Origin: Acidobacteriaceae bacterium KBS 83
GTDB lineage: Bacteria > Acidobacteriota > Terriglobia > Terriglobales > Acidobacteriaceae
Assembly: GCA_000381585.1 (NCBI GenBank)
Contig: KB906737.1
Span: 558,001 to 622,000 of the forward strand
DNA: 64,000 nt
Direction: 5' to 3'
This document shows positions 14,559 to 17,961 of the stretch, in pieces. The notes under the pieces are model-generated. The model had not been told where the DNA came from and did not search any database. It saw nothing but the letters and a program-made list of their open reading frames with translations. The first letter of the stretch is position 1. Each line of letters opens with the position of its first letter. The position numbers and the translations under genes are program-made.

Positions 14559-15341
14559 TTACTCACGATCACGGCTGCTATCGCGAGTCATGTCGGCTGG
14601 ATGAGTCGAATCCCAAAGCTCTGTCCTGAACCTGCCTACCAAAAGCGCCACCGTAATCGCTATGTAGAGAACTCCGGTCACTCCCTCTAGTGCTGCCAGT
14701 ATGCGGGCCTCCCCGCTAAGCGGCACGATATCGCCATACCCGATTGTCGAGAGCGTTATCAGGCTGAAATAAAGCAGATTGGTAGCATGCTGGGCTGGCT
14801 GGCTTCCGATCTGGATTGAACCCGGATAGAACGCATCAATTCCCAAATAGAGCGTCGCCCATAGCAGCCCCAGCAACAGGTAAATGTTGACCGCCGTATA
14901 GAGGTGAGATCGCGTGACGGTACGAGAACTTCTTAGATGGGAGAAAAGCCCCGCAGCCGCGAGCGCGAAAAACGCCGCCAGAAATCCCCATCGAATCCCA
15001 GTGAGTGCTCGGCTGCGGAAAGTGTTGCCTGCTATTACAAAGGCCATGTTGATCAACATCAACAAGACCGATGGCCACACCCACAATTTGATCTGCGACA
15101 ACATGACGGTGGATACCATGACGGGTATGAACGTCACTCCCGCGAGCATTAGACGGCGCCAACCATCATGGTCCAATACCGGAGTCAACAGAATTGCCAG
15201 CAGCAAGGAGAGGAGTAGAAGCAAGTCCGGTCGCGGGTGAAGTTTCGTCTGCATCAGAAAACTTTGAGCTGGCGCCTTCGATCGATTCGCTGCTGATTCT
15301 ACTGGAATCTGAGACAGTAGTTGGTTGGTCCAGTTGTGCAT
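14559..15341 (-). CDS. Two-TM potassium-channel-type membrane protein
   Basis: About 260 residues. Several hydrophobic helices occupy the N-terminal two-thirds (LLLLLSLLLAILLTPVL; WPSVLLMLINMAFVIAG; a helix starting WGFLAAFF), and a classical pore module ends the protein: an outer helix (YLLLGLLWATLYLGI), the filter TLSTIGYGDIVP, and an inner helix. The filter T-x-G-Y-G-D is the K+ signature. No cytosolic RCK domain is present. A second possible start is the ATG at 15254. The first 60 bases overlap the end of a haloperoxidase relic frame. Confidence 0.85.
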   Translation of the reverse strand: MHNWTNQLLSQIPVESAANRSKAPAQSFLMQTKLHPRPDLLLLLSLLLAILLTPVLDHDGWRRLMLAGVTFIPVMVSTVMLSQIKLWVWPSVLLMLINMAFVIAGNTFRSRALTGIRWGFLAAFFALAAAGLFSHLRSSRTVTRSHLYTAVNIYLLLGLLWATLYLGIDAFYPGSIQIGSQPAQHATNLLYFSLITLSTIGYGDIVPLSGEARILAALEGVTGVLYIAITVALLVGRFRTELWDSTHPADMTRDSSRDRE

Positions 15342-15395
15342 CTAGTGTCTTCTCGAAATCCGGATACAGCTCTTCGTGACACTCCCCAACTTGTA

Positions 15396-15555
15396 CAAAG
15401 TAAGGCATGTGCGTTCGGTCGATGTTGTTGACCGCGTCGTAGATTGCGGCGTGCATGATGGCAAAGCTGAGGGTAGGGTTTACTGTCTTACGTCCGAGCC
15501 GCTGCTCCTGCAGATTAGCCAAAAGGATATAAGGTTTCATTTCTCTTGCCTGCAA
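15396..15555 (-). pseudogene. Vanadium-haloperoxidase N-terminal fragment
   Basis: The minus-strand frame starting at 15555 reads LSFAIMHAAIYDAVNNIDRT then HMPYFVQV. The M-H-x-A-x-Y-D-A-V-N pattern is the conserved first helix of vanadium-dependent haloperoxidase/PAP2-like proteins. After about 53 codons similarity ends and the frame runs into sequence overlapping the ion-channel gene. The catalytic histidine and the vanadate-binding residues, which lie near the C-terminus, are absent. It is best explained as a deletion relic. The assignment rests on one motif. Confidence 0.5.
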
Positions 15556-15864
15556 TCAGGGAATAAACCCGCGCCGCCTCAGTTCTTATCCGCAGACAGG
15601 GGAGGAAAGGAAGATCCAGGTGAAAAGAGTATGCGCTCTGATTTAGTGTTCGGGGCACTTGCCCAGATTTCGAATCGCTATCATCTTTGTCGGCTGACCT
15701 CCAAGGGCACCCGCAAACTTCATGTACCGAAAGCTCGCTTGCAAGAGACGACAAACGATGTGCTTGTGCGCTTACGTCACTCCCAACCGATTCCGCTGAT
15801 TACACTACAATCTGCACATTTCCAACGCCGCCCTGCTTCACGGCTGAACTGTCAGAGGTGAACA
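15556..15864. other. Non-coding stretch
   Basis: About 309 bases upstream of the small hypothetical gene at 15865 and of the haloperoxidase fragment on the other strand. Short open frames here are arginine/serine-rich and overlap one another. I see no gene, repeat or clear stem-loop. Confidence 0.4.
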
Positions 15865-16197
15865 ATGCCTGCCTTCTGTGACAAGCGGACTAAGACCCTC
15901 ATGGCCACCATGACATCTCTATCGATGACGCCGTTCGAAGTGCCACGACAAATCGAATGGTATTGCCTTCTCCTTGAGCATCTAAACGAATTTGCAACGC
16001 TCGCATGGTATTTCGTCGCGGACAGCCAGCTTGTCGAATGTGTAATCCGGCGAACGCTGAAATCGCTTCATGACATTCCATTCGATACTTCCCAACCGCT
16101 TCTTACATACCACAACGCTCGAAACATGGTCATCACACAAGCGATTGCAACGCTATTCAGCGATCGGGAAGTACCTCAATATCCCATTGTTTGTTGA
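15865..16197 (+). CDS. Small hypothetical protein, 110 residues
   Basis: GAGGTG lies 5 bases before the ATG. The sequence has natural composition, rich in aromatic residues and predicted to be helical (RQIEWYCLLLEHLNEFATLA; ADSQLVECVIRRTLKSL; YHNARNMVITQAIATLF). The arrangement of helices recalls the region-2 part of sigma-like regulators, but the core DNA-binding signature is absent, so I leave it unnamed. Another ATG lies at 15901, nearer the conserved-looking part. No coupling with neighbours. Confidence 0.5.
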   Translation: MPAFCDKRTKTLMATMTSLSMTPFEVPRQIEWYCLLLEHLNEFATLAWYFVADSQLVECVIRRTLKSLHDIPFDTSQPLLTYHNARNMVITQAIATLFSDREVPQYPIVC

Positions 16198-16475: not shown

Positions 16476-17961
16476 ATGGCACATTCATCACTCGAAAAGT
16501 ACAACCAGTCTCTCGCAGCAGTTCGGGAGAGGTTTGACGCAAACCCAGCCCTCAACGCACTGCGATCAAATAGCGATCCGCGGATGTTGGAGCTGTTTTT
16601 GTTGTACTTCTGTGCCATTGGTGCACAGATGACTCAGCCCGTAGAAGACTGGATTCGTCGCGCCGCATCGCGCTGTACTGAGCTTGGCTTTGAACAATTG
16701 GCAAAGGCCCTGGGTCACCACGCCCAGGCTGAATCCGGTCATCACCTGATGATGATTGCTGACGTTCACTCACTCGCGAATCACTGGAATTCCCGCCGGT
16801 TGACGCAGATGAACTACTCAGGCAAGCACCGGGGAAAGGGCGCGGAGCTATTGTGAAGTCCATGAGCGGAACATCGCAGGCAATACCCCCTATGCACAGA
16901 TTGCAATCGAGTATGAGATCGAACAACTTCCACTACGTTATGGCAACTTGTTCCTCACCCGCTGCCTTGAGGTTTTCGGACCGGAAATCCTGTCGAGCTT
17001 GAGTTTCGTTTCGGCACATATTGATTTGGATGTCGGCCATACCCATTTCAACGAACGCGAGTTGGCAAAACTGATCGATTCGACTCCGGAGAGCCTTCCG
17101 GCCCTTGTAGCAGCCGGAACCCCCGCACTCGACGCCTACGCCGAGTTCTTGCGCGAGTGTGTCGCGCTTGCTGAGCAACACTCCAGCACTATCAGGAAGT
17201 CTTTCAAAAGCGGTCGCAGTTCCTATCGTGGCGACTTCAACCGCCACCTGAGATCCTGGCTCCTGAATGCTCGGAATGGATCCCTAGGTGGCTTGAAGAG
17301 TCGAGAGCCTTGCGAGGGACGGTTCTCTTCGACGATGGAAGACGCCCGCGTTTCCGCGGTCCCGGGCGGCGGTTATGACGATCCGGATCCCATAGACTTT
17401 TACGCATGGCATGTGCTTGCCTACCATCGATCCGCACCCGTCGGCTGTGTCCGTGTATATCCGATAACCGAGGACGGTCCCCCGAGTCTCACAGAATCGA
17501 TTCTTGGCACAGCTGAGTTCATCAGGATGCTCGCCAGATTAGGGAAGCAACGGGAGCAGGTGATCGAAATTGGACGATGGGTCGTCGATCCTGCCTTCCG
17601 AAACGGGCGTAGTCTGGCTCCTGGAATTGGGCTGGAACTGGCCGCCGGTGCAGGCGCACTTGCCCTTGCGCTCGCAGACCAAATCGAGTCTGGGAATGGA
17701 GTAGCGATCTTCGCTGCTGGAACGCGCGACGGGCAGTATCTCACACTTACACGCCTCGGCTTGAGGATGGTTGCCGGTCTCTCTCCTGTGCGTTCCAGCG
17801 AATATAACGACTTCATTCAAGTCCTGCACTGCGATAGCACGACGAAGCTGCAGCCGCGTCTTCGACGCATCATCGAATCACTTTCGATCGCAATGCGAAT
17901 TGAAGAAACCGTGCAAATGGTTCACAGCCAAACCCTCTACAGTTCATCTGCAGGCGACTAG
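16476..17961 (+). pseudogene. Heme-oxygenase-like domain fused to an N-acyltransferase, multiply frameshifted
   Basis: The locus decodes as one protein of about 495 residues only if four frame changes are accepted, near 16795, 16840, 17185 and 17362. The N-terminal part (RMLELFLLYFCAIGAQMTQP to HHAQAESGHHLMM) looks like a TenA/heme-oxygenase-like di-iron protein. After the second shift, CEVHERNIAGNTPYAQIAIE continues that domain. The C-terminal part (GCVRVYP, then EIGRWVVDPAFRNGR and AAGTRDGQYLTLTRLGLRM) looks like a GNAT-type N-acyltransferase of the FeeM/LuxI-like kind. The alternative frame at 17185-17360 reads WIPRWLEESRALRGTVLFDD, filling the gap. Such a fusion suggests a fatty-acyl amino acid or signal pathway. 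As it stands the gene cannot make this protein. Confidence 0.7.

Follow-up and report, generated by a model that had tools for sequence, protein, structure and literature searches.

Heme-oxygenase-like dimetal oxidases (HDOs), among them UndA, CADD, SznF, HrmI and BesC (PF14518), combine a helical heme-oxygenase-like fold with a metal ligand pattern that ends in H-x3-D-x2-H, and a set of three histidines and three carboxylates (3H/3C) is given for most of them in a 2026 review of these enzymes (PMC13108848). According to the same review, HDO proteins number more than 10,000, and function has been validated for only about a dozen of them. The N-acyl amino acid synthases, represented by FeeM (PF21926), the PF13444 family and NasY, with TyzA as a structural relative, have been described as separate proteins accompanied by separate tailoring genes (PMC10404671, PMC12479983). 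In the Tyz pathway, TyzA N-acylates tyrosine and the flavin oxidase TyzC desaturates the product with O2 (PMC10404671), and a similar gene set has been proposed for the stieleriacines (PMC12479983). The oxidase of the tyrazolone/oxazolone pathway (TyzA/TyzB/TyzC; OxzA/OxzB) is a nitroreductase-superfamily flavin enzyme that is found with a ThiF cyclase, and fusions occur there too, OxzB being a ThiF-nitroreductase.

How does the locus analysed here compare with these systems? In the window, by which we mean the whole analysed stretch of 64,000 nucleotides (558001-622000 of contig C5) from the soil acidobacterium Acidobacteriaceae bacterium KBS 83, positions 16476-17961 are in our judgement likely to be a copy, with disrupted frames, of a bifunctional HDO/N-acyltransferase of about 500 residues that would make an oxidised lipid; this copy is probably a recent pseudogene. 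Its N-terminal domain shares the predicted helical fold and the 3H/3C pattern ending in H-x3-D-x2-H with the HDOs, but is distant from them in sequence (three of four members have no PF14518 match), and unlike them it is followed by an N-acyltransferase on the same chain. The C-terminal domain resembles the N-acyl amino acid synthases and passes the PF13444 cut-off (and that of FeeM in one Rhodoblastus copy), whereas the fusion has an oxidase on the same chain instead of among separate tailoring genes. Like the tyrazolone/oxazolone pathway, the fusion would couple N-acylation to O2-dependent oxidation of the product; unlike that pathway, it has a dimetal HDO domain and no ThiF. No HDO/N-acyltransferase fusion was found in the literature searched, which included the HDO review and left most subscription-journal papers outside, and no paper that names such a fusion came to light there; the initial annotation had likewise given no standard name for the pairing. 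Both domains are already known, and it is the fused pairing that appears to be unnamed.

Frame structure of the window copy

Translation of the window gives a frame-0 ORF at 16476-16856 and a frame-1 ORF at 16948-17961. We compared the window with a profile (A1) built from three intact homologs only, leaving the window copy out. Four fragments of 16476-17961, in frames 0, 2, 1 and 0, match this profile in the correct order. Frame 0 of 16470-16853 matches profile positions 2-106 (158.4 bits, E 7e-49), frame 2 of 16763-16999 matches positions 107-124 (11.2 bits) and fills exactly the positions that are missing, and frame 1 of 16813-17958 matches positions 123-481 (413.7 bits) with one poor stretch inside. 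The fourth fragment, frame 0 of 17175-17375, matches positions 247-298 (39.4 bits, E 8e-13) and replaces the stretch where the frame-1 reading loses similarity, and is thus an excursion within frame 1. As a control, 2,107 six-frame fragments from elsewhere in the window were scored against the same profile, with a highest score of 3.0 bits. The segments of the copy, and the flanking gene remnant discussed below, are as follows.

16476..16796, + strand: frame-0 segment, first part of the HDO domain (residues ~1-107); A1 profile match and alignment with intact homologs
16793..16840, + strand: short frame-2 segment PVDADELLRQAPGKG, HDO domain continued; profile match and tblastn
16846..17184, + strand: frame-1 segment, second part of the HDO domain; profile match and ligand columns
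17187..17361, + strand: frame-0 excursion, linker and start of the N-acyltransferase (FLSWRLQPPP...RALRGTVLFDDGRRPRFR); profile match
17365..17961, + strand: frame-1 segment, body of the FeeM-type N-acyltransferase to the stop codon; Pfam PF13444 and identity to Silvibacterium
15304..15994, - strand: flank, remnant of a gene that is intact elsewhere (about 430-506 aa); blastn and intact relatives

The first segment carries the ligand E and H of an 'AESGHH' motif, and the third the Glu of 'IEYEIE' together with the H-x3-D-x2-H motif (HIDLDVGH). Between them, the frame-2 segment is a 16-residue tblastn piece with 81% identity to Silvibacterium, and the last segment is 54% identical to Silvibacterium and contains the conserved EIGRWVVDP motif. 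The initial annotation had placed four frame changes in this copy, and they are present in the sequence close to its positions (about 16795, 16842, 17185 and 17362), because it is there that the profile fragments switch frame. Its read-through of ~495 residues agrees in length with the intact homologs (498-502 aa).

N-terminal domain

An unguided 23-row alignment of the fusion N-domains with 19 PF14518 proteins from relatives has only six invariant columns, E84, H87, E151, H183, D187 and H190 (Rhodoblastus numbering), and these fit the 3H/3C dimetal ligand set of HDOs. Overall identity between the fusion N-domains and the 19 HDO-family relatives is only 15-20%. The window fragments retain all six of the invariant residues, at which metal binding is predicted. 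A search for di-iron ligands in the N-terminal half had been suggested at the outset, and these six columns supply dimetal ligand residues.

Pfam finds no match in most of the fusion N-domains: PF14518 (Haem_oxygenas_2) matches one of four, at E 0.0016, and leaves the other three without a match at E up to 10. Comparison of the N-domain with the PF14518 alignment by hhalign gave 40.6, against 25.1 for the best of 200 column shuffles, in which the alignment columns were filtered, and 14.5 for the reversed alignment. An AlphaFold model of the N-domain made from an alignment containing PF14518 proteins reached a pLDDT of 95.1 and a pTM of 0.90, although those proteins could bias the model towards a heme-oxygenase-like fold; the three close rows alone gave a pLDDT of 35.7. 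VIA Z values of the model were 24.0 to 3dde, 21.5 to CADD (1rcw), 20.5 to HrmI and 20.0 to UndA, and Foldseek placed the same four at or near the top, with 3dde at E 3e-5. The 3dde entry is a structure of a heme-oxygenase-like domain, and its sequence is the only heme-oxygenase-like one in the PDB that the profile matched, weakly (E 0.21 and 0.81).

The N-terminal half is thus modelled, with confidence, as a heme-oxygenase-like helical domain. The TenA model PF03070 matched neither the full proteins (E up to 5) nor the N-domains (E up to 10), and a thiaminase identity was rejected: the fold is common to both, but PF03070 is silent and the HDO ligand set is present. We conclude that the N-terminal half is an HDO domain and not a TenA thiaminase, so that of the TenA/heme-oxygenase-like N-terminus first described, the fold stands by AlphaFold, VIA and Foldseek, and the TenA assignment gives way to the HDO branch by its ligands.

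C-terminal domain

By its Pfam matches, the C-terminal half is assigned to the Acetyltransf_5/FeeM-type N-acyltransferases. All copies scored against PF13444 (Acetyltransf_5) lie above its cut-off of 22.4 bits (35.6 for the window copy, 40.2 for Rhodoblastus and 28.6 for Silvibacterium), and PF21926 (FeeM), with a cut-off of 27 bits, gives 29.0 in one Rhodoblastus copy, 15.8 in the window copy and 14.6 in Silvibacterium. The FeeM-like C-terminus of the initial annotation is supported by PF13444 and, in one Rhodoblastus copy, by PF21926. NCBIfam gave nothing above its cut-offs on the fusion proteins. The one hint that this domain makes a LuxI-like signal is a weak, collinear profile match to the BjaI autoinducer synthase (E 0.45, 69 profile positions covered). 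The window's genome has a second, weak FeeM-type match at another place, in a 294-aa frame (L085, G000:C4:261802-262164).

Intact homologs and rarity of the fusion

Searches for homologs started from the frame-1 C-terminal part of the window copy. In Silvibacterium bohemicum S15, which belongs to the same family as the window's 6.25-Mb genome, the fusion is one uninterrupted ORF of 558 aa, or of 498 if translation begins at an inner ATG; two Rhodoblastus genomes each have it as a single 502-aa ORF. Both halves therefore occur together in one ORF in three genomes, as the initial annotation had asked to see, and these three intact fused ORFs rule out separate genes as the usual state. A fifth copy, in a genome from another acidobacterial family (G469, L013:5420-6564), lies at a contig end with its two halves in different frames and an acyltransferase short by ~23 residues; because the contig end cuts it and those residues are missing, this copy is itself degraded. 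Five copies were found in all, two of them broken. The fusion occurs in one genome besides the window's own among 150 family members searched, and likewise in one among ~396 members of the phylum. In the Rhodoblastus family (397 genomes) it was present only as the two Rhodoblastus copies, and no further full fusion was found in the Rhodoblastus order (297 genomes).

Outside the fusion copies, neither A1 nor the N-domain gave a convincing match to the N-terminal half when used as query, and when the N-domain search was widened to E up to 5, only chance-level pieces came up beyond the known copies. The N-domain had no match in phage records or viral contigs, and the plasmid search matched the C-domain only; a phage or plasmid origin was rejected on this absence from the phage and viral records searched and on plasmids that match the C-domain alone. 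The two-domain fusion is a real, rare gene architecture, and it is real although the window copy looks dead, because intact one-gene copies exist in other bacteria.

Pseudogene or sequence error

Is the window copy a fossil, as it was first labelled, or a living gene that was badly read? We consider the label likely to be right and the copy a pseudogene. It is rather unlikely that the living strain has an unbroken gene and that the four frame changes arose locally through errors of sequencing or assembly, but several features speak for that explanation: no stop codon falls within the correct-frame segments, all six ligand residues are kept, as is the EIGRW motif, and private replacements at otherwise fixed positions are not accelerated, with 40 in the window lineage vs 36 in the intact Silvibacterium copy. 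Frame changes without a nonsense codon, together with these replacement counts, make local error and very recent loss look alike. Dozens of long open frames in the rest of the window, the longest of 1,085 aa, however, exclude a general error rate of four indels per 1.5 kb. The adjacent gene (15304-15994) has also shrunk: it aligns by blastn at 87-91% identity with genome G118, where the gene is intact at 500 aa, in three pieces split by deletions, with ~48 and ~470 bases lost internally and the far end gone, which is not readily sequencing error. These large deletions next door make genuine, recent decay likelier than faulty sequence.

Proposed function

What might a single chain with these two domains do? 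We infer its enzymatic activity, substrates, chemistry, step order, export and biological role from related systems and from gene context. Judging from the domains and established pathways, two reactions of the fusion are most likely: attachment of a fatty acyl group to an amino acid, and O2-dependent oxidation of the conjugate. The N-terminal domain (residues ~1-243) would hold two metal ions through three histidines and three carboxylates and activate O2, and the C-terminal domain (~246-480) would acylate the amino group of an amino acid, with acyl-ACP or acyl-CoA as the fatty acyl donor. The HDO domain would then oxidise the amino-acid part of the N-acyl product, most likely by desaturation or oxidative decarboxylation, and so fill the place of the nitroreductase-superfamily flavin oxidase of the tyrazolone pathway. 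One polypeptide would thereby make and modify an N-acyl amino acid, as was suggested at first, and the product would be a lipid, probably exported. Export is suggested only by the gene set in Rhodoblastus, where the fusion follows, as fourth gene on the same strand, genes for an MlaC-like protein, an ABC ATPase and a MacB/FtsX permease. More tentatively, and with somewhat less than even confidence, we propose an undescribed class of bifunctional natural-product enzymes in which one chain N-acylates an amino acid and its dimetal HDO domain oxidises the product, giving a new oxidised lipid or signal with dedicated MlaC/MacB-type export in Rhodoblastus.

The steps might run the other way, with the oxidase acting first on a free amino acid or fatty acid (by N-oxygenation, hydroxylation or C-C cleavage) and the acyltransferase capping the product to give a signal of the LuxI kind. 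HrmI, BesC, AetD and PolF do act on free amino acids and UndA on fatty acids (PMC13108848), and the weak BjaI match described above points the same way, but no LuxR-type partner was seen among the annotated flanking genes, which include ECF sigma factors and an exporter, and we regard this order as somewhat unlikely. It is very unlikely that the N-terminal domain is a structural or regulatory heme-oxygenase-like module with no oxidase activity, for example a ligand-binding tuner of the acyltransferase: such folds have non-oxidase roles too, as in TenA, and this N-domain subfamily is without any known activity, yet the six HDO ligands are invariant in the Acidobacteria and Rhodoblastus copies and in 19 relatives at 15-20% identity. 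The fusion also points to a way of oxidising N-acyl amino acids without a flavin, in parallel with the tyrazolone and stieleriacine pathways. Fixing an HDO to an N-acyltransferase narrows its likely substrate to the amino acid, the acyl chain or their conjugate, so that one recombinant protein would be enough to test directly what an unassigned branch of the HDOs does.

The only plasmid match to the C-domain, at 28-29%, is a protein of Streptomyces sp. NBC_01431 (WP_329468361.1), which resembles the fusion in joining an N-acyltransferase-like domain to a possible tailoring domain. It differs in that the partner is ThiF, placed after the acyltransferase, and an HDO domain was not detected in it. 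Its gene (L015:7965-9833) is directly followed by one for a ketoacyl-ACP synthase III, and the protein may be a further case of N-acyl amino acid tailoring on a single chain.

Gene neighbourhoods

In Rhodoblastus an ECF sigma factor gene lies downstream of the fusion on the opposite strand, and in Silvibacterium the fusion is preceded by genes for an ECF sigma factor and a zinc-finger anti-sigma protein; the genes on either side of the window copy are unrelated. Homology of the window to G118 ends at 15994, and the fusion was found in G118 neither in the 12 kb beyond that point nor by the family search. The remnant at 15304-15994 looks haloperoxidase-like by eye, with Pfam silent, and a relative of intact length exists in the window's own genome (G000:C2:170121). 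Beside it, window positions 15865-16194 hold a 110-aa ORF with a GC content of ~0.50, against 0.58 for the window, and only two relatives were found for it: a 251-aa frame (47%) on the small contig C17 of the window's genome, and a short, TGA-containing piece in G118. In G118 a gene for an ECF sigma factor (L095:2206-2599) appears in two frames. Close to it are genes for metallophosphoesterase and cytochrome c, which neighbour the Silvibacterium fusion too, and decay of this shared neighbourhood seems to have set in in more than one lineage.
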